Source of the DNA: Ammonifex sp.
Lineage (GTDB): Bacteria; Bacillota; Desulfotomaculia; Desulfotomaculales; DYER01
Assembly (NCBI GenBank): GCA_020725605.1
Contig: DYER01000061.1
Coordinates: 1-41,855 of the forward strand
DNA length: 41,855 nucleotides
Reading direction: 5' to 3'
Shown here: positions 7,568 to 26,523 of the stretch, in pieces
Numbering within the stretch: the stretch's first letter is position 1
Layout of the letters: each line of letters opens with the position of its first letter
Made by a program: the position numbers and the translations under genes
Notes under the pieces: model-generated
The model's input: only the letters and a program-made list of their open reading frames with translations
What the model was told of the DNA's origin: nothing
Databases searched by the model: none

Positions 7568-7810
7568 CTATCCGCCGGCCACCGGCGGGAAGAGGGCCAC
7601 CCGGTCCCCGGCCTCCAGCGGGTCGGAGGGGGTCCGGTGCCTGCCGTTGACCAGGATGGAAAAGACCTCTCGTTCCGGCACACCGAGCACCGTCAGCAGA
7701 TCCCCGGCGGTGGCGCCCTCCGGCAGGTCTACCTCCATGGCCTCGCCGAAGGAAACGGGAACGTACCTTTCCAGGCCCCCGTAGACCCTCACCTGTACCC
7801 GCACGTCCAC
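7568..7810 (-). CDS. MoaD-like ubiquitin-fold sulfur carrier
   Basis: An 80-residue beta-grasp protein ending in the diglycine tail (FPPVAGG) that carries the thiocarboxylate in molybdopterin/tungstopterin synthase. The body matches MoaD: VRVYGGLERY at the start, ATAGDLLTVLG, ILVNGR and AGDRVALFPPVAGG. The frame is open back to a TTG overlapping the AOR stop (7921), but the extra 36 residues do not resemble MoaD. A GTG at 7810, or nearby GTGs at 7813 and 7804, gives the normal length. The start is therefore uncertain by a few codons. It is translationally downstream of the AOR and upstream of its cognate E1-like gene. Confidence 0.85.
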   Translation of the reverse strand: MDVRVQVRVYGGLERYVPVSFGEAMEVDLPEGATAGDLLTVLGVPEREVFSILVNGRHRTPSDPLEAGDRVALFPPVAGG

Positions 7811-7917
7811 CACCCCGAAGGCCGAAGTCCGGGGCGCGATTTCCGCCCCGGATGGCCGGCAGCTGCCGCCGGAGGCCCCGCACCGGCGAAGGTGCGGAGC
7901 CCAAACCGGCCTAGCGG

Positions 7918-9654
7918 TCAAAAATTGTACACCGCATCCAGTTCTTCGTCCCGCACGTCGAAAACCGTATTGTGGGGCGGCAGGGCCTCCTCTTTCATGA
8001 ACTCCGGCAACCGGTCGTGGGCCGCGGTGAATCCCGCCGCCGCGTTGAAGGCCCGTTCCACCCTCAGTACCTCCTGGCCGTACCGCACGGCGTCGTCCAC
8101 GGTGAAATCCCGGCCGGTGCGGGCCGCAATCAGGTCCGCCACGGCCTGCAGGGCCTCGGGTACGTCCAGCAGGGCGAAGGCCGTGAAAAGGCAGAGGCCC
8201 GTGGAGTCCAGGAAGGCGGTGGCCACCTGCAGGTTGCGCGACAGTTCCACCTGGCCCTCGGCCTTCAGGGGATCGACGAAACCGCCCACCTTCAGCACGT
8301 TGGTCGCCGTGGCGTAGCCGGCCGTGTGGTCCGCGCCCATGCTGCTGGTGGCGTAGGTCACGCCGATGCCCTTGACGGCCCGCGGGTCGTAGGCCGGCAT
8401 GCCCTGGCCCTTCACCACCGGCACCCGCGTCAGCCCGTAGACCTGGCCCGCCACCGCGGCCCCGGCGCCGATAATGCGGCCCAGGGGGGTTCCGTGGCGC
8501 AGCTCGCGGTCCAGCAGCTCGATGGCCCGCTCCCCGTCGCCGAAGGCCAGCACCCCGGCCTCCATGAGCACGGCCAGGGTGACGCCGGTCTCGATGGTGT
8601 CCAGGCCCAGGTCGTTACACAGCCGGTTCAGGGTGGCGATGTGGTCCAGGTTGCCGATGCCGCAGTTGGCCCCCAGGGCCCAGGTACTCTCGTACTCCAC
8701 CGGCGCGCAGAGCAGGCCGCCCTTTTCGTCCGGGATCACGTTGGAGCACCGGATGACGCAGCCCGGGTGGCAGGGATGCCCCATTTTGCCCGCGCCGCCG
8801 CGCTGCTTCACGGCCTCGGCCATGGCCTCGCCGCCCGTGGCCGCGGCCTCCTCGAAGCGCCCGGCCGAGAAGTTGCGGGTGGGCAGGCCGCCCGCCTCGT
8901 TGATGATATTCACCAGCACCGCCGTGCCGTAGGTCGGCAGGGCCTGGCCGGTGACCGCATGATTCTGGAGGGCCTTGGTCAGAACCTGGGAGGCCTTGCG
9001 GAACCTGTCCTTGTCCGCCACCGGGGTCTCGAAGCTCTTGCGCGTGTTGACCACGATGGCCTTGAGGCCCTTGGACCCCATTACCGCGCCCAGGCCCCCG
9101 CGCCCGGCGTAGCGCCCGGGCCCGCCCTCCCGGTCGCTCGTGGACACGCCGGCCGCCTTCATGAGCATCTCGCCGGCCGGGCCGATGCAGATGACCCCGA
9201 TCTGGGGCCCGTACCCGGCCCTGAGGCGCTCGTTGACCTCGTAGCACCCCTTGCCCACCAGGTCCCCGGCGGGTTTGAGCTCCATGCCGCCCTCGCCGAT
9301 CACCAGCACGTGCCAGCCCTTGTCCGCGGCGCGGCCCTCGATCACCAGGGCCCCGATACCCAGGCTGGCCAGCTTCTGGCCGCAGACCCCGCCGGCGTTG
9401 GATTCCTTAATGGTGCCCGTCAGGGGAGACTTGCCACCCACCGAGAGGCGCCCGCTGCTGGGCGCGTTGGTGCCCGCCAGCAGGCCCGGCGCGAAGACCA
9501 GTTTGTTGTGGGGTCCCAGCGGGTGGCACGCCGGCGGTACTTCGTCGGCCACGATCCGGGAACTCAGAGCCCGCCCGCCCAGGAGGCCGTACTCCGGGGG
9601 CGGGTCCGCGGCCGTAACGGTCAGGTTTGACATATTCACGCGGACGATTTTCAT
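7918..9654 (-). CDS. Tungsten-dependent aldehyde:ferredoxin oxidoreductase
   Basis: A full-length AOR family enzyme (578 residues). It oxidises aldehydes to acids in the cytoplasm, reducing ferredoxin, with a tungsten bis-pterin and a [4Fe-4S] cluster. The cluster ligands appear as C295, C299 and C303 (CHPGCVIRC, one residue longer in the first gap than the usual C-x2-C-x3-C) and C488 in GLCLF. H443 in GADHTAGY fits the conserved active-site histidine. An upstream in-frame start at 9789 exists, but the ATG at 9654 follows GGAGGG at good spacing and begins the family sequence MKIVRVN. It has its own promoter and lies just after the microcompartment operon, hence a likely propionaldehyde or 3-hydroxypropionaldehyde scavenger (inference). 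Confidence 0.95.
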   Translation of the reverse strand: MKIVRVNMSNLTVTAADPPPEYGLLGGRALSSRIVADEVPPACHPLGPHNKLVFAPGLLAGTNAPSSGRLSVGGKSPLTGTIKESNAGGVCGQKLASLGIGALVIEGRAADKGWHVLVIGEGGMELKPAGDLVGKGCYEVNERLRAGYGPQIGVICIGPAGEMLMKAAGVSTSDREGGPGRYAGRGGLGAVMGSKGLKAIVVNTRKSFETPVADKDRFRKASQVLTKALQNHAVTGQALPTYGTAVLVNIINEAGGLPTRNFSAGRFEEAAATGGEAMAEAVKQRGGAGKMGHPCHPGCVIRCSNVIPDEKGGLLCAPVEYESTWALGANCGIGNLDHIATLNRLCNDLGLDTIETGVTLAVLMEAGVLAFGDGERAIELLDRELRHGTPLGRIIGAGAAVAGQVYGLTRVPVVKGQGMPAYDPRAVKGIGVTYATSSMGADHTAGYATATNVLKVGGFVDPLKAEGQVELSRNLQVATAFLDSTGLCLFTAFALLDVPEALQAVADLIAARTGRDFTVDDAVRYGQEVLRVERAFNAAAGFTAAHDRLPEFMKEEALPPHNTVFDVRDEELDAVYNF

Positions 9655-9769
9655 AACTTTCCCTCCTTGCTCCCCTCTTGCGGAGAACGTCCACATGTAC
9701 CCAACGGAGGTACCTCCCACCCCTCCAGAAAACTTCACGAAAACCACGAAATCTTTAACAAGAGAATAA

Positions 9770-9799
9770 ATTAAAATCCGCTCTGCCACAAGGGGTCAA
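9770..9799 (-). promoter_or_regulatory. Sigma-A-type promoter for the AOR-moaD-moeB group
   Basis: On the minus strand TTGACC (9794-9799) and TTTAAT (9770-9775) are separated by 18 bases, matching the TTGACA/TATAAT consensus at five of six positions each. It stands directly after the terminator of the microcompartment operon and about 115 bases before the AOR start. Confidence 0.6.
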
Positions 9800-16021: not shown

Positions 16022-16428
16022 CCGCCTTTCCTGCCGAAGCCCCCTAAGCGTACCGCCACAAGGTGACTATCCGTTCTTCGGCCGGCGTGTGTCCCGCTCG
16101 CTCCAGTGCTTCGCGCCGACAGCGCCACGGCTCGCTACGGACCGGCCTAAGCGGCGCTGCAAATGCTGACCTCATACCGTAATGGTAAGCTACCGCTGTC
16201 TACATCACCTGTTGCTGTGAGGCTCGATGCAGCTGTCGAGCGCGCGTTTCGCGCCGCAGGCCGGTTACCCTCCGCTCGCCGGGCGCTGTTACCGGCGCTT
16301 TCGCAAGTCGCTGGCTTGCGACCGGGAATTTTGCCCCCGGAAATCTTGCTGTTCTCGACGCGTGTACCTGGCAAAATTCCCGGTCGTCCGACACACGCCG
16401 GCCTTATCAACATCTTTCTCGTAGCGGT
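16022..16428 (-). other. 407-base intergenic region between eutN-like gene and pduO
   Basis: This is the largest gap inside the microcompartment operon. I see no convincing gene: the 88-codon frame at 16147-16413 runs through a hairpin element and resembles nothing. It holds the palindromic element at 16319-16386 and a small stem TCGCAAG/CTTGCGA (16301-16307 with 16315-16321) that overlaps its left end. The rest lacks clear promoter motifs. Confidence 0.6.
16319..16386. repeat. Palindromic hairpin element, copy A
   Basis: A perfect 17-bp inverted repeat: CGACCGGGAATTTTGCC at 16319-16335 and its complement at 16370-16386, around a 34-base loop. A second copy at 20081-20149 shares the inner arm sequence and much of the loop (CGGAAA, CTTGC, TACCT). 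Its stem differs at two outer positions by changes on both arms that keep pairing. It lies 43 bases after the vertex-protein stop codon. Confidence 0.8.
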
Positions 16429-16759: not shown

Positions 16760-17548
16760 TCATTCGGTCTCCAGCAACCGCACACCGTGCTCCGTGGCCA
16801 CGTCCCGCGCCAGGGGCGTCACCAGCACCCCGGGGCCCAGACGGATTTCCCTTCCCTCGCGGGCCGCCGCCAGTATCTCGGCCGCGGTGATCACGCCGCG
16901 GGCCACGGGGGCCGCCGACGGGTGGTGCGCCTTTAGTGCCGCAGCTCTGCCAAGGCCCAGGGTTTCACGGGCCGCCGCCCCCAGGTCGGCCGCGGCCACC
17001 AGCCTGACCCCCAGGGCCTCCACCCGGCGCAGGTTCTCCCGCAGGGCCGCCGCCAGGCCCGGGTGGGCTTCTCCGCCCAGGACCGACCGCCACTCCGGGT
17101 GGTCCGGGTCCGCGGCATCCCGGGCCGCCACCACCGGTAACCCCCTCATCAGGGCTTCCAAAATGAGATTGGGAATCAGGCCCGCAAAGTCCAGCATCGC
17201 GACCCGCGCCGCCGTCTTCCTGGTCAGGACCGGGACCAGCACCCCCCGAATCTCCTGCAAGAGGTGCCAGGCACCCTGCTCTCCGTCCTCTTGCACGATG
17301 TACCCGGAAGGGCAGAGCTCCAGGAGCTCCTCCCTTTTGTGGATGCGGGCCGCGGCCCGGCTACAGGCCATCCTGAAGGTGATCCCCTCGGCCGCAAGCG
17401 CCCGCAACCCTTCCCGTGCCCGCGGCCAGCCTATGGTGCCTCCGGTGAGCAGAACCAGGATGTCCGGTGCCTGTACCGGGTGCCCCAGGCGCCGCAGTAC
17501 CTCCGCCACCACCCGCCGGACCAGTTCCTCGTCGGACAACGGGATCAC
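16760..17548 (-). CDS. Microcompartment-associated flavoprotein-family protein
   Basis: A 262-residue protein resembling the flavoprotein-fold (PF02441-like) proteins found in several BMC loci. It opens with an amphipathic helix, LSDEELVRRVVAEVLRRLG (4-22), like the encapsulation peptides of PduD and PduP. It then has LVLLTGGTIGWPRAREGLRAL, which fits a flavin phosphate loop, and a C-terminal stretch GVITAAEILAAAREGREI found in BMC-linked proteins. No catalytic function is established for this group; a flavin-dependent role in cofactor or redox balance inside the lumen is inferred. It overlaps the EutJ-like stop by four bases (ATGA). Confidence 0.75.
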   Translation of the reverse strand: MIPLSDEELVRRVVAEVLRRLGHPVQAPDILVLLTGGTIGWPRAREGLRALAAEGITFRMACSRAAARIHKREELLELCPSGYIVQEDGEQGAWHLLQEIRGVLVPVLTRKTAARVAMLDFAGLIPNLILEALMRGLPVVAARDAADPDHPEWRSVLGGEAHPGLAAALRENLRRVEALGVRLVAAADLGAAARETLGLGRAAALKAHHPSAAPVARGVITAAEILAAAREGREIRLGPGVLVTPLARDVATEHGVRLLETE

Positions 17549-18392: not shown

Positions 18393-19016
18393 TCACCGGC
18401 CCGTAAGCCCTTCGATGGCCGCCAGCGCGGCCTCCTTGCCGGCCAGGACCTCGGACTCGGTCCCCGACAGGAACATGCGTCCGAAACGGCCGACGTTTCT
18501 GATGTCCACCACCTTCAGGGCCGCGGCCTTTTCCGCCTCGTTGGCCGCCAGTACGATGTAACCGGCCGGCGTGACCTCCAGGACGAAGAGGGTCTCTCCC
18601 GGCACGAGCAGGCCGCCGCGGCGGAACTTGTTGATCAGCTGGGCCTGGTAGGGATCCACGTTGGTGATGATTTGCACCGAGGCGATCCTGGGCTTGATGC
18701 GGTCGCCTTCCTCGAGGCCCAGGTAGTCCAGGATGGCCCGCCCGCCCTGCAGGACCGCGGCCTGGTCCGGGGCGTGGATTTCCATCATGCCGAACTCACG
18801 TTCCACCACCAGGGCCGCCGGCCGCACCGGTGCCGACTTGAGCACGATGTCGGCGATGCGGAAGATTTCGTTACCCGGGCCCACCTCCACGTAGAGTTCG
18901 GACATACCGGCCACGGGAATGTCGCCCTGCACCGTGGTACCCACGTAGGCCGCGTACTGGGGTTGCATGCGGTCGATAAAAACGTAGGTTCTCAGTTCCA
19001 ACCCTCTTTCCGACAA
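18393..19016 (-). CDS. BMC-T shell protein (two fused BMC domains), not PduB-like
   Basis: A 207-residue protein that reads as two BMC-like domains: about 8-110 beginning ELRTYVFIDRMQPQYAAYVG, and about 115-207 ending with FGRMFLSGTESEVLAGKEAA. Such tandem proteins form pseudohexameric trimers, some with a gated central pore. It is clearly different from PduB (25423-26220) and PduT (11661-12215), so the shell has three kinds of tandem protein. The start is TTG at 19016, nine bases after GGGGAG; a second TTG four codons on is possible. The central loop PGNEIFRIADIVLKSA is a good tag for finding relatives. Confidence 0.8.
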   Translation of the reverse strand: MSERGLELRTYVFIDRMQPQYAAYVGTTVQGDIPVAGMSELYVEVGPGNEIFRIADIVLKSAPVRPAALVVEREFGMMEIHAPDQAAVLQGGRAILDYLGLEEGDRIKPRIASVQIITNVDPYQAQLINKFRRGGLLVPGETLFVLEVTPAGYIVLAANEAEKAAALKVVDIRNVGRFGRMFLSGTESEVLAGKEAALAAIEGLTGR

Positions 19017-19052: not shown

Positions 19053-19331
<279 letters not shown>

Positions 19332-19355
19332 ACTACCCTCTCCCTGTCCTCAGTT

Positions 19356-20045
19356 TTACTCCACATTGTGATGGATGCACCTGGAGCGCGGTTCCCCCTT
19401 GCGCCGCGGACAGGCCGGGTCGCCGCAGAGGTTGCACGAAGGCTCTCCGGCCGCCGGGTAGGGCGCGTAGCCTTCCACCTCCGGGACGCCACCGGCGTTC
19501 TCCGGCCGCACCCGCACCCCCGTGACCTCGTGTTCCTCCGGGCCGCCGACCTCGGCGGCGGCCGCCTCCCAGGGCTCCGCAACGGTCACCTCCCCGGCCT
19601 CTGCGGCGGCCGCCTCGTCGGGTTCCGCGCCCCCGGCATCCAAAAACGCGACCCCTTCCCCGACGTCCGGCGTCTCGGGTGCTGCGGCTTCGGGTTTCTC
19701 GCGGGGCTCCCCGCGGTCTTCGGGCACCGCCACCTCTTCCGTTCGCGGCGCCGGCGGCGGAGGCACGTTGTCCGGGCTTTGGACCATGAACTCCAATCCG
19801 GACGCCGGACGCGGAATCACGTGCACCGCCCGTACCGTACCCACCCGAGCCGCGGCGGCCGCACCGGCGCCCACGGCCGCCTGCACCGCCGCCACCTGGC
19901 CGACGACCTTGACCGTGACCAGACCTCCCCGGGCCACCTCGTAACCGACCAGATTCACGTCGGCGGCCTTGGCGGCGGCGTCGGCCGCCTCCACCGCCGC
20001 GGTCAACCCCAAAGTTTCTATGAGTCCCAGCGCCGCGCCCGTCAC
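19356..20045 (-). CDS. pduK: PduK-like BMC-H protein with long C-terminal extension and Cys motif
   Basis: A 229-residue protein. An N-terminal BMC-H domain (about 1-90) is followed by a low-complexity Pro/Glu/Ala-rich linker of about 110 residues. A C-terminal tail then has C204, C207, C212 and C223 ([20 protein letters not shown]), the spacing of the PduK tail thought to bind a metal or iron-sulfur cluster. The pore loop is ARGGLV instead of GSGLV. The frame opens at ATG 20063, but the GTG at 20045 follows GAGGGGGA at proper spacing and begins [12 protein letters not shown]. It starts 36 bases after hairpin element B. Confidence 0.9.
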
Positions 20046-20080
20046 CGCCGCTCCCCCTCGCATGGTAATACCCAGACGTC

Positions 20081-20149
20081 CGACTAGGAAATTTGCCCTC
20101 GGAAAGCCTTGCCCGCAGCACGAGTTTACCTGGGCAAAATTCCTAGTCG
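20081..20149. repeat. Palindromic hairpin element, copy B
   Basis: An 18-bp inverted repeat with one mismatch: CGACTAGGAAATTTGCCC at 20081-20098 and GGGCAAAATTCCTAGTCG at 20132-20149, around a 33-base loop. The right arm overlaps the pduH 3' end and encodes its last codons and stop. It is related to copy A at 16319-16386, with paired changes in the outer stem. Confidence 0.8.
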
Positions 20150-20590
20150 TCGCAACACCTGCAATACCACCCCGGCCACGGCGGCCGGGTCAACCCGGCG
20201 GTCCGGCGCGCTCGATCCGCTCCCCGACGGCGGTTGCGAAAGGCCCTCCAGGGGCAACCCCTTCACCAGCCGTCCCGCGTTCTGACCCGCCAGGCGGGCC
20301 TGCGCGGCATCGGCCCGCGGCAGGTGCTGGACCGGCCGCTCCGGTGGCAGCTGGGCGTGGTGCAGCACCACCGTGCCGTCTCCGGCCACGGCCAGCCCCA
20401 CCCGCAAAACCGACCGCCCGGCCGCGCGGTGGGCCAGCGCCACCGCCTCACCACCGGCCACCTCGACCTCCCAGGGGACGCCCTGCTCCTCCAGCCCGGC
20501 GAGCAGCTCGCGCAGAACACTTCCTCCTTCCACCGCCGGATGTACCGTTATCTCGATGGCGGGCTTCCGCGGGCCGACCCCTGCCTCCAC
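20126..20590 (-). CDS. pduH: PduH, small subunit of diol dehydratase reactivase, with C-terminal helix
   Basis: About 154 residues. The first 110 match PduH, the small subunit that swaps onto the dehydratase to release damaged B12: [34 protein letters not shown], the subunit-contact-like [10 protein letters not shown] and [14 protein letters not shown]. After the usual end there is a Ser/Gly/Pro-rich linker and a helix [19 protein letters not shown] that resembles an encapsulation peptide. This is longer than Salmonella PduH (about 115). The start is set at GTG 20590 behind GGGGGTGACGG; the frame is open to 20665 within pduG. The last seven codons lie in hairpin element B. Confidence 0.88.
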
Positions 20591-20607
20591 CGCACCGTCA
20601 CCCCCGT

Positions 20608-22425
20608 CTACCGCCGGCACGCCAGCACCAGCCCCGTGGCCACCGCGTTGCGCGGCCCCTCGCAACCGCGCACGTTGGCCCGCCCCGCCACCACCCCGTA
20701 CTCTGCCAGCTTGCGGGTGATCATTTCCGGGATCTCGAAATCCAGAGCCGAACCGCCCACCAGCACCACGAAGTCCAGGTGCCTGACGTTGCCCGTGGGC
20801 ACCACCTTTTCCAGGGCCCTCAAACTGTTGGTGAGAAAAACCCGTTCCTTGCTGGTGCGCCGCACCGCGCGAATGCGCTCCAGGGGCTGGTCCGTGGCCA
20901 CCGGCGTCATGGTGCCGTCCTCCTCCAGGAGCACGACGCGCCCGAACAGCCTGGGATCCAGGGCCTCCCGGAAGAAATGCACCGTCCCGTCCTCCAGCCG
21001 CATGTGGAAAAGGCTTTCCACCTTGGCCAGCGGGTAGCGCTTCACCTTTTCGGCCAGCTCACGGTCCCGCAGCGCCAGCTCGGAGTCGATGAGCATGGTC
21101 ACCATTTCTCCGGCCCCGGCCAGGTGCACCGTGCGGACCTCCCCGTTGTTCGCGATAAAGGCGGCGTCGGTGGAACCCCCGCCCAGGTCCAGCACCGCCA
21201 GGGGCCGGTCCACGCCGGGCGTGGTGAGGGCACCCAGGACGGCCATTTCGGCCTCCACCCCGCCCAGTTCCACGGCCACGCCGGTTTCCCGTTCCAGGGC
21301 CGAGGCCACCTGCTCCATGGGCAGGCGCGTGGTCTTGACCATGGCGGCCAGGGCCACCGCGTTTTCCGCGGCGAATTCTCCGGCCAGGCCACCCCGCACC
21401 GTCTGGTGCGCCATGGTGTCCACGGCCAGGACGTCCTGAATACGGATGGCCGCCGGCGCCTGGCCCGTCAGTTCGGCCATGGTCTGCCGCACGCGCTGCA
21501 TCATGCCCCCCACGTTGGTGCCGGGTTCCCCGCGTACGTCCCGTAGCGGCCAGGCCCTCTCCACCGCCCTCATCACGGCCTCGGCCCCGTCTTCAATGTT
21601 GACATCCAGGCGCGCCCTCTCGCCCTCAACGGTCAGCACCCCGGCCGGTATGCGCCGCTCGCGCACCTGACCCTGGGGTGTCTTCAGCACCACGGCCGAC
21701 CGGTTGCCGATCAGCGCCCGGGCGATGGGCACGATGGTCTTGGTCTCCTCAGGACCCAGCCCGAAGATGGTGGCGATCCCGTAGGGGTTGCTCAACGTCT
21801 GAATGGCGCGCCCGGGCTCGGCCACCTCCACCGCGGCGGGCACCCCCGGGGGCACCAGTTCGATCAGCGCCACCTCGTCCACCACGGGTATCCTGCGCCC
21901 CAGGCGGTTGTTGAGCAGTACGGCCTCGTCCTTCTGCATGATCGCCCCGGTGACCTGGACGCCCCGGTCCAGGGCGCGGTTGATGAGGGCCGCGGCCCCG
22001 TCGTAGGTGTGGGCCCCGCCCACCACCACGACCACCCGCTCACCCGGGGCCACCCGGTCCAGTTGCTCGAGCGGGACCGTAATCCCCACGCCCAGGCCGG
22101 CCCCTCCCGGAGTGGAGGGGTCGTGGCCGATCATGGTGGACTCCGTGATGATCGTCTCGGTTATGGTTTCCATGGCCACATCGGTGATCACGGGGGTGGC
22201 TTCGTTGAGCCGGATCAGGGACAGGTCCTGCACCCGCAGGCCCACCCGGGCCACCGCGTCCTGCAGCGCCATGACCACCCCCCGCACGTTGGGAAGGGTA
22301 CCCTTGACCCCGGTGGTCCTGGTGATGGCCGAGGCGATGAATTCCGGAGGCCCCGTGGGCCCCAGACGCGCCACGGCCACCTCGGTGGTCACGTTGCCGA
22401 TGTCAACACCCGCCACGAGTCGCAA
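20608..22425 (-). CDS. pduG: PduG, large subunit of diol dehydratase reactivase
   Basis: A protein of about 605 residues with an ATPase fold, which with PduH removes inactivated cobalamin from the dehydratase. It begins LRLVAGVDIGNVTTEVAVA (phosphate loop), then has INEATP-type (LNEATPVITDVAMETITETI) and GHDPSTPGGAGLGVGI segments that match PduG/DhaF closely, and later DLGGGSTDAAFI. The frame is open to 22476, but the TTG at 22425 follows GAGAGGG and gives the family length. A hairpin between pduE and this gene could set lower expression than that of the enzyme subunits. Confidence 0.95.
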   Translation of the reverse strand: MRLVAGVDIGNVTTEVAVARLGPTGPPEFIASAITRTTGVKGTLPNVRGVVMALQDAVARVGLRVQDLSLIRLNEATPVITDVAMETITETIITESTMIGHDPSTPGGAGLGVGITVPLEQLDRVAPGERVVVVVGGAHTYDGAAALINRALDRGVQVTGAIMQKDEAVLLNNRLGRRIPVVDEVALIELVPPGVPAAVEVAEPGRAIQTLSNPYGIATIFGLGPEETKTIVPIARALIGNRSAVVLKTPQGQVRERRIPAGVLTVEGERARLDVNIEDGAEAVMRAVERAWPLRDVRGEPGTNVGGMMQRVRQTMAELTGQAPAAIRIQDVLAVDTMAHQTVRGGLAGEFAAENAVALAAMVKTTRLPMEQVASALERETGVAVELGGVEAEMAVLGALTTPGVDRPLAVLDLGGGSTDAAFIANNGEVRTVHLAGAGEMVTMLIDSELALRDRELAEKVKRYPLAKVESLFHMRLEDGTVHFFREALDPRLFGRVVLLEEDGTMTPVATDQPLERIRAVRRTSKERVFLTNSLRALEKVVPTGNVRHLDFVVLVGGSALDFEIPEMITRKLAEYGVVAGRANVRGCEGPRNAVATGLVLACRR

Positions 22426-22465
22426 TCGCCGACCCTCTCCCCCACCGTTCTGCTTCCGTGGTCGC

Positions 22466-22491
22466 ACCGGGGGCACTCCGGCGTCCCCGGT
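22466..22491 (-). other. Hairpin between pduE and pduG
   Basis: ACCGGGG (22466-22472) pairs perfectly with CCCCGGT (22485-22491) around a 12-base loop in the gap between pduE and pduG. No T-tract follows, so it is not a normal terminator. It might protect the upstream pduCDE message or tune the pduGH level. Confidence 0.35.
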
Positions 22492-22510: not shown

Positions 22511-23020
22511 CTACGCCTTCAGCCGGCCGCGCCGCTCGTAGACCTCCGCCGCCTCCCGGATGAAGGCCGCATTGATGCGCGCGCCGTACCTGCTTTCCAG
22601 TTCGTCCGCGATGGCCAGCAGTTCGGCCTTGGTGGAACGGTAGGGCCGCAGGGCGTTGTAGATCTCCAGGATTCTCTCGTCGGGAATGGCCGTCAGTTCG
22701 GCGGCCCGGCGCAGGTTCTCGGCCAGTTGCCGCCGGCCGACCGCCGCGGCGATCTCGGCCTGCAGGCGCAGCGTTTCCGGGGTGATGCGGAATTCGTCGG
22801 CCGTGATCTCGCCCGACATCACGCGCTCCAGAGTGAGTTCGTCCAGGCGGCGGCCGCCGGGCGTGCGCACCAGTTCCGGCCGTTGCGTGGCCAGGGGATA
22901 ATCGCGGGCCGGGTCCAGCCCCCCGCCGACGGCCGGCGCGGGCTTTTCCTCGGGCGCCTGCCGGCCAAGGCTCTTCAGGACCTCCCGCACCACCTGCTGA
23001 ACGAGGCTTTCGTCGATCAT
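22511..23020 (-). CDS. pduE: PduE, small subunit of B12-dependent diol dehydratase
   Basis: A 169-residue gamma subunit of propanediol/glycerol dehydratase. The N-terminus IDESLVQQVVREVLKSLG is an amphipathic helix of the encapsulation type. The body has DYPLATQRPELVRTPGGR, LDELTLERVMSGEI, DFRITPETL-like (EFRITPETLRLQAEIA) and RPYRSTKAELLAIADELES, all family hallmarks. A GTG at 23032 overlaps the AGGAGG ribosome site, so ATG 23020 is the better start. Fifteen bases separate it from pduD. Confidence 0.96.
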   Translation of the reverse strand: MIDESLVQQVVREVLKSLGRQAPEEKPAPAVGGGLDPARDYPLATQRPELVRTPGGRRLDELTLERVMSGEITADEFRITPETLRLQAEIAAAVGRRQLAENLRRAAELTAIPDERILEIYNALRPYRSTKAELLAIADELESRYGARINAAFIREAAEVYERRGRLKA

Positions 23021-23035
23021 TGCTCCGCCCACCTC

Positions 23036-23701
23036 CTAATTCAAGGGCTTGAAGGAAACCTCCAGTTCCACCGGCGGGGCCCCGGGCTGAACGAGTTCGG
23101 TTTCCTTGAGGTGCAGGATGGCCGCCTTGGCCTGGTACTTGGGCCGCGCCATCTGATCGATGCGCACCGGCACCGGTTCCGGTACCTGTCCCTTGGCGTA
23201 GCGCGCGGCGTTGCGCCCGATGGCCCGGTAGGTCTCCGGGTCCAGCACCGGCGACTGGGGAAACAGTTCCAGGTTGTTCAGGGGCTGCAGGTCCCGCTGG
23301 TGGATGAGGGTCGTGCCCCGGGACTGGATGCCCACCGCTATTCCGGAGCCGCTCAACCTGGCCGCCGTGTGACCGATGAAGCCCAGGTCCGAGGTGTGCC
23401 GGACGCGCACCACGCGGGGCTTCAGACCCTCTTCCTCTATGCCGGCCATGAGCTCCCTCAGTACCACGGCATGGGGGATGTCCACGATGGTCTTGCGCAA
23501 CCTCGTGCCGAAGGCCGGTCCCACGCCGATCACCACCTCGTCGGCGGGACCCTGCCCCGCCGGGCCCTTTTCCTCAAGCACCAGTTCCACCCCGGCCGCT
23601 GCCGGTGCCGTTGCCGGGGCCGGCGGTGCCGCGGCGGGTTCTCCCATGGCGCGCAACACCTCGGTAACTATCTGTTCGATCAGCCGCTCGTTGATTTCCA
23701 T
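23036..23701 (-). CDS. pduD: PduD, medium subunit of B12-dependent diol dehydratase
   Basis: A 221-residue beta subunit. It begins with the encapsulation helix [19 protein letters not shown] and an Ala/Pro-rich linker (22-37), which suggests that it brings the whole dehydratase into the compartment. The core has [35 protein letters not shown], the cobalamin-contact region [15 protein letters not shown] and [16 protein letters not shown]. The ATG at 23701 follows GGGAGG at good spacing and the gene lies 20 bases after pduC. Confidence 0.97.
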
Positions 23702-26244: not shown

Positions 26245-26523
26245 TTACTCCAGCCGCGGCAGAATTTTCTCCACGTCGGCGTGCGGCCGCGGAATGACGT
26301 GCACGGCCACCAGTTCGCCCACCATCTTGGCCGCCGCGGCCCCGGCGTCGGTGGCCGCCTTGGTCGCACCCACGTCGCCGCGGACCATCACGGTCACCAG
26401 GCCGGCGCCGATCTTCACGTAGCCGATCAGCCGCACGTTCGCCGCCTTGACCATGGCGTCCGCGGCCTCGATGGCCCCCACCAGACCGCGTGTCTCGATC
26501 ATGCCCAGGGCATCGGTGTTCAC
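26245..26523 (-). CDS. pduA: PduA, hexameric BMC-H shell protein
   Basis: First gene of the microcompartment operon; 92 residues. It has [37 protein letters not shown] and [15 protein letters not shown] as in Salmonella PduA. The central pore loop is KIGAGL, so the pore serine of Salmonella PduA (GSG) is alanine here. The GTG start at 26523 follows GGGGGAG. The promoter region with palindromes lies just upstream, and pduB begins 24 bases downstream. Confidence 0.96.

Follow-up and report, generated by a model that had tools for sequence, protein, structure and literature searches.

The window, a stretch of 41,855 nucleotides from Ammonifex sp., carries a Pdu microcompartment operon on its minus strand. 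Within it, pduH (20126-20620, minus strand; PF02288, E=2e-29) encodes the small subunit of the diol dehydratase reactivase, extended by a C-terminal tail. The start of this ORF is uncertain: GTG at 20620 was used, and GTG at 20590 or TTG at 20665 would also be possible. Its PF02288 domain adjoins pduG (20608-22476, minus strand; PF08841, E=1.3e-157 in this genome), the gene for the large subunit and partner of PduH, which identifies the product as a PduH/DhaG-type reactivase small subunit. The same strand encodes pduE (22511-23032) with the N-terminal encapsulation peptide (EP) LVQQVVREVLKSLG (EP score 30.0) and pduD (23036-23701), also with an N-terminal EP (score 28.1). Two BMC shell proteins may be binding partners of such peptides. 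One is encoded at 19053-19331 (minus strand; ORF, BMC seed, and repeat family D1 shared with two other shell genes), and the other, which is PduA-like, at 26245-26523 (minus strand; ORF, and repeat family D1 shared with 19066-19345).

Further genes of the operon were noted. The ORF at 16760-17548 (minus strand) encodes a protein of 262 residues that has no Pfam or NCBIfam match, carries a strong N-terminal EP, LVRRVVAEVLRRLG (score 19.4), and corresponds in position to the 'flavoprotein' gene of the Ilyobacter pdu operon. The gene at 18393-19016 (minus strand) was considered as PduL and rejected, since it matches a CcmP-like BMC protein of the beta-carboxysome type (E=9e-79, below the NCBIfam cut-off). 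No PduL was seen in the operon of the window; in the Ilyobacter operon, the region corresponding to 18393-19016 holds a phosphate propanoyltransferase gene. At 19356-20063 (minus strand) lies a gene for a BMC shell protein whose extension is long, acidic and rich in proline and whose C-terminus is rich in Cys; we take this protein to be PduK-like.

The core domain of PduH (Dehydratase_MU, PF02288; 20249-20566, minus strand) was delimited by the Pfam match, the AF2 model and Foldseek. The protein continues for 40 residues past ...LVKGLPL before it ends at a TAA codon at 20126-20128 on the minus strand. These residues comprise a Ser/Gly/Pro-rich linker of about 20 residues (125-144; 20189-20248, minus strand), an EP-like helix (residues 145-158 of 164; 20147-20188, minus strand) and, from 20126 to 20149 on the same strand, the last seven codons RLGILPR with the stop, which are coded by the arm of a palindromic repeat. 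The original prediction had read the protein in this way, and the ORF and the repeat coordinates confirm both its positions and its reading of linker, helix and repeat-coded end. The AF2 model, built with 49 relatives, had a mean pLDDT of 87.7, with values of about 97-98 in the core, below 50 for linker residues 130-137 and about 92 for residues 151-160. The tail thus combines two properties of EPs, a predicted short terminal helix and a flexible linker to the cargo. The model for PduH of Sporomusa malonica follows the same plan: a core, a low-confidence linker and a helix at residues 129-150. Best Foldseek matches of the core were the reactivase beta subunits 1nbw_B, 2d0p_B and 2d0o_B (E=3e-12 and a TM score on the target of 0.87 for 1nbw_B). 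The core therefore shares the fold of solved diol and glycerol dehydratase reactivase small subunits (1nbw_B and 2d0o_B, 38-40% identity), but these proteins have 117 and 125 residues and are tail-less.

Similarity of the tail to EPs was scored with a profile of 14 positions trained on the N-terminal PduD and PduE regions of the same loci (181 of 207 sites); PduP N-termini were not among the training sites, and a PduP-like seed was part of the starting matrix. Among scored BMC loci the profile recognises PduD in 84/85 and PduE in 83/86, positives that belonged to the training, and it recognises neither protein in BMC-free loci (PduD 0/12, PduE 0/10). PduH tails were separated from 601 C-termini of other Pdu proteins with an AUC of 0.96, and from shuffles with the same value. 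Slightly more than half of the tails (25/48) scored above the 99th percentile of the controls and 23/48 did not; L099 and L074 have long PduH ends with poor EP scores. The tail of the window scored 10.1, which was reached by none of the 601 control C-termini and by none of 500 shuffles of the tail, so that the resemblance of its helix to the N-terminal EPs of PduD and PduE, as originally proposed, is above chance. All six conserved hydrophobic positions are filled in the tail, and the hydrophobic moment of the helix, taken alone, is not significant (p=0.08 for the 14-mer, p=0.48 for the 20-mer). Tails and PduD/PduE EPs agree in their hydrophobic positions with r=0.91, a value that is high partly because the sites were picked by the profile. 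In all five groups of related species the median dN of the helix was lower than dS, with dS undefined or saturated in 38 of 91 pairs.

For the comparison of PduH ends, loci with pduG and pduH were taken from three sources: the best 80 of 579 confirmed candidates from a PduG-alignment scan of named genomes, a set biased towards the PduG of the window; PF08841 matches in 398 evenly drawn genomes of the phylum, 29 of which matched, the window's genome included; and two genomes of the same order. This gave 114 loci (L037-L149 and the window), from which seven without an adjacent PduH (L044, L073, L112, L120, L121, L128, L141) and six duplicates (L127, L134, L135, L138, L139, L146) were removed, leaving 101 non-redundant loci. 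Three of those without an adjacent pduH, L120, L121 and L128 (genomes G123, G223 and G080), are pduG copies in genomes with a second pduG, and two of these three copies have at their end an Arg/Ala-rich extension without EP character.

With a tail defined as at least 20 residues beyond the last PduH core motif, 48 of the 101 loci encode a PduH with a tail, in most cases an EP-like one, and all of them are loci with shell genes (48/87 versus 0/14 without; Fisher p=5.6e-5, kinship ignored). Presence in BMC-associated and absence from BMC-free homologues is the distribution expected of an EP, with the reservation that a phylogeny-corrected test was underpowered: independent pairs of tail and BMC state numbered two on starred branches and five on all branches, never discordant and too few to test. 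Hence the association of the tail with BMCs is not proven to be free of shared ancestry. The phylum sample alone (27 loci, duplicates kept) had tails in 12/25 loci with and 0/2 without BMC genes (p=0.49). Tail lengths in BMC loci are bimodal, with 39 loci at 17 residues or fewer, one at 21 and the remainder between 28 and 128; one tailed PduH (L119) is cut by the end of its contig. Apart from the window, tailed loci with a named phylum belong to Bacillota (36) and Synergistota (1), and ten more, under coded labels, to the phylum of the window. Since 39 of the 87 BMC loci lack it, the tail is dispensable. It was also missing from eight reference operons in a plasmid collection, four of which have shell genes (Salmonella, E. 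coli, Listeria and Ilyobacter), and the tail may have been overlooked because these well-studied systems are tail-less. Comparative evidence of this kind supports the encapsulation-like reading of the original prediction.

A hydrophobic helix could pack elsewhere than on a shell, and EPs themselves are reported to self-associate (PMC12339742). The tail could then form a coiled coil, act in dimerisation or touch PduG or the dehydratase, instead of being a shell-targeting signal. This seems unlikely to us given that the tail is lacking in all 14 shell-less loci, which have reactivase and, for the most part, dehydratase genes, and given the match of the tail to N-terminal EPs of other enzymes.

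Regarding the history of the tail, the window groups in the PduG tree (quick search, SH-aLRT 96) with 11 loci that are all tail-less. This place is not firm because the branch of the window is long and its composition odd, and the PduH tree had too few columns to place the window. The tail label requires 11 changes on the PduG tree. No decayed tail was detected 3' of PduH in the 11 neighbours (best EP score -11), and the tail of the window may therefore be a separate gain. Duplication of another EP-coding stretch was rejected as its source, as DNA matches within its own genome were only short (17-43 bases). The tail-less neighbours and the weak amphipathicity of the window's helix would also suit a functionless hydrophobic extension that arose by chance after loss of a stop codon. 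We give this explanation very little weight, as the profile score beats every one of the 601 controls, tails recur under 18 family labels (some of which may overlap) and the helix has a dN below dS.

The end of pduH lies in an imperfect palindrome of 69 nt (20081-20149) with arms at 20081-20112 and 20118-20149 that are 78% complementary. The RLGILPR codons and the stop correspond exactly to its outermost 24 bases, 20126-20149, in the 3' arm. Arm and genome matches mark this palindrome as one copy of a genome-wide repeat family; its predicted RNA fold is strong (z=-4.5). By its arm matches, a second copy in the operon was located between the pduN-like and pduO genes (16319-16386). Arm CGACTAGGAATTTTGCCC has four matches in the window at up to three mismatches, against an average of 0.01 in shuffles, and the arm pattern CGACNNGGAAWTTTGCC has 63 matches in the genome against 0 for the reversed control pattern. 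In 59 other genomes of the order the pattern matched once in each of three, so the family is nearly private to this genome. A palindrome in the linker-coding DNA, CCGGGTTGACCCGG, was considered as a second repeat and rejected, because it occurs only once in the genome.

Members of the family measure 66-71 nt, and 30 complete palindromes, that of the window included, were examined for their position. Nine of them lie in or at the end of seven genes with a Pfam domain: NAD kinase (L178, interior), MoeA (L203, C-terminal), PduH (C-terminal), ProC (L205/L153) and a cation efflux protein (L216/L162), both with two C-terminal copies, and a HAD hydrolase (L213) and QueH (L215), where the ORF stops inside the repeat. 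The other 21 are intergenic, 5' of an uncertain start or over ORFs without a Pfam domain. In NAD kinase, the peptide coded by the repeat was unmatched in all 15 relatives compared: all C-terminal matches begin at residue 154-162, and the N-terminal match ends at 128-131 in the 10 relatives with this match listed, with 0-24 bases between the pieces. The absence of the peptide from relatives indicates that the family is read in frame inside proteins. Rickettsia palindromic elements (RPE) are likewise reported to be translated in frame within unrelated genes or at their ends (PMC10969869), and the copies in NAD kinase, ProC, cation efflux protein and MoeA are palindromes placed in frame within unrelated protein-coding genes. 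The likeness is one of in-frame placement; the family differs from RPE in size (66-71 nt versus about 150 bp) and belongs to another phylum. We regard it as a candidate for protein-coding palindromes outside Rickettsia.

The hairpin could also act as RNA, stabilising a 3' end or providing a processing site in the space from pduH to the next shell gene, the coding overlap being incidental. The fold of the copy at the pduH end is strong, three other copies are comparable (z=-3.4, -7.5 and -5.2), and copies occur in intergenic as well as coding places. No terminator-like T run was seen at this hairpin and no Rfam match was obtained, and some copies lie within coding DNA. Such a role, which would be compatible with an EP in PduH, is possible but less likely than not.

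The original prediction further proposed that the repeat had helped to create the tail. Of this claim the part that stands is that the repeat codes the end of the protein, and it stands in a wider sense, as copies of the family contribute coding sequence to several unrelated proteins in this genome. As origin of the tail, however, the repeat fails: relatives carry the same kind of tail without it, with no repeat at the PduH end in any of the 47 other tailed loci. Near the PduH stop it was absent from all 100 other loci, so tails of this kind do not stem from it. Single arm-like matches (at most two substitutions) in these 100 loci numbered seven, as did those of the control pattern, the nearest lying 1.07 kb away. 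In the window itself the repeat codes residues 158-164, and the predicted helix (145-158) ends at the first of them. Only one residue of the helix is thus repeat-coded in the AF2 model, and linker and helix upstream of the palindrome are not repeat DNA. The part of the tail upstream of the repeat still scores EP-like, at a value reached by 1/601 controls and 2/2000 shuffles. With the repeat missing from the other tailed loci and nearly all helix codons lying 5' of it, the tail did not originate from the repeat, which forms its cap and did not supply the helix. The repeat is probably a late neighbour that trimmed or replaced an older end of pduH.

Several observations nevertheless speak for a creative role of the repeat, which on insertion would have abolished the former stop and given rise to the targeting helix. 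RLGILPR and the stop codon are repeat-coded, the grouping of the window's PduG with 11 tail-less loci suggests that the tail may be young here, and protein ends are coded by the family elsewhere in the genome. In addition, the repeat fills one hydrophobic profile position in the tail with the leucine codon CTA. Of the 63 arms, 48 have GG at the NN of the arm pattern and only two have TA, both in the PduH copy. With common arm variants the codon would become Arg or Pro and the EP score would fall from 10.1 to 3.1, a difference of 7 units that, coming from a single copy, cannot show selection. Against the 47 other tailed loci and a helix that ends where the repeat begins, we consider a repeat-born tail highly improbable.

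We therefore consider it likely that the tail of PduH is an encapsulation peptide, a linker followed by a helix with a hydrophobic face, which would bind the inner face of the shell and/or co-aggregate with the EPs of PduD, PduE and PduP, and that the repeat is a late neighbour. For this tail, we infer binding and targeting from sequence features and the structure model: the tail itself, the predicted helix, the EP-like sequence, its restriction to loci with shell genes within the set compared, and a helix dN below dS in related species. EPs are described as binding shell tiles and aggregating cargo (PMC11157265; PMC12339742). Like the N-terminal EPs of Pdu enzymes, the PduH tail is a terminal helix of 14-20 residues with a disordered linker and their pattern of hydrophobic positions, encoded in the same operon. 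Unlike them, it is C-terminal and sits on the reactivase small subunit, where the Salmonella, E. coli, Listeria and Ilyobacter operons have none. C-terminal EPs are already known on other proteins (PMC8217296). The PduH tail resembles those of CcmN in beta-carboxysomes, type I aldehyde dehydrogenases (EUT2) and pfam00596 aldolases (ACI), described as lying behind a linker (PMC8217296; PMC12339742), but its cargo is a chaperone-like repair factor and not a pathway enzyme or scaffold. No report of an EP on PduH was found in the literature searched, which takes in few subscription papers.

In Salmonella, PduG, which lacks a signal sequence, was reported to reach the core and apparently depends on the body of PduD (PMC12108088), and PduGH alone was dispersed in the cytosol (PMC9132943). 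A self-contained signal on PduH would therefore be a meaningful difference. A scan of Salmonella proteins reported terminal extensions for PduC, D, E, L and P and for no enzyme without a predicted contact to PduA or PduJ (PMC4315436). The same source describes that one PduH is released during reactivation and PduD takes its place. With a signal on PduH, PduGH could enter the compartment independently, and the subunit freed during reactivation might be kept inside. A more elaborate scenario would have about half of the BMC-linked reactivases in this Bacillota-centred sample target themselves via PduH, the subunit exchanged for PduD, with the freed subunit tethered; in the window, an RPE-like repeat would have inserted at the end of pduH, acquired in its two arms a variant that alone among the 63 arms gives leucine, and thereby become the helix cap. 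We judge this whole chain to be doubtful. The entry of the B12-recycling proteins PduG, H, O and S into the compartment is described in print as an open question (PMC6873790). A C-terminal signal on PduH in many Bacillota would offer a direct test of how these proteins enter, and the tail could find use as a naturally occurring C-terminal tag, here carried by a small folded protein.

Just downstream of the pdu operon lies a large ORF (7568-9789, minus strand) that presumably resembles aldehyde ferredoxin oxidoreductase, and it is accompanied by small MoaD-like and ThiF-like ORFs.
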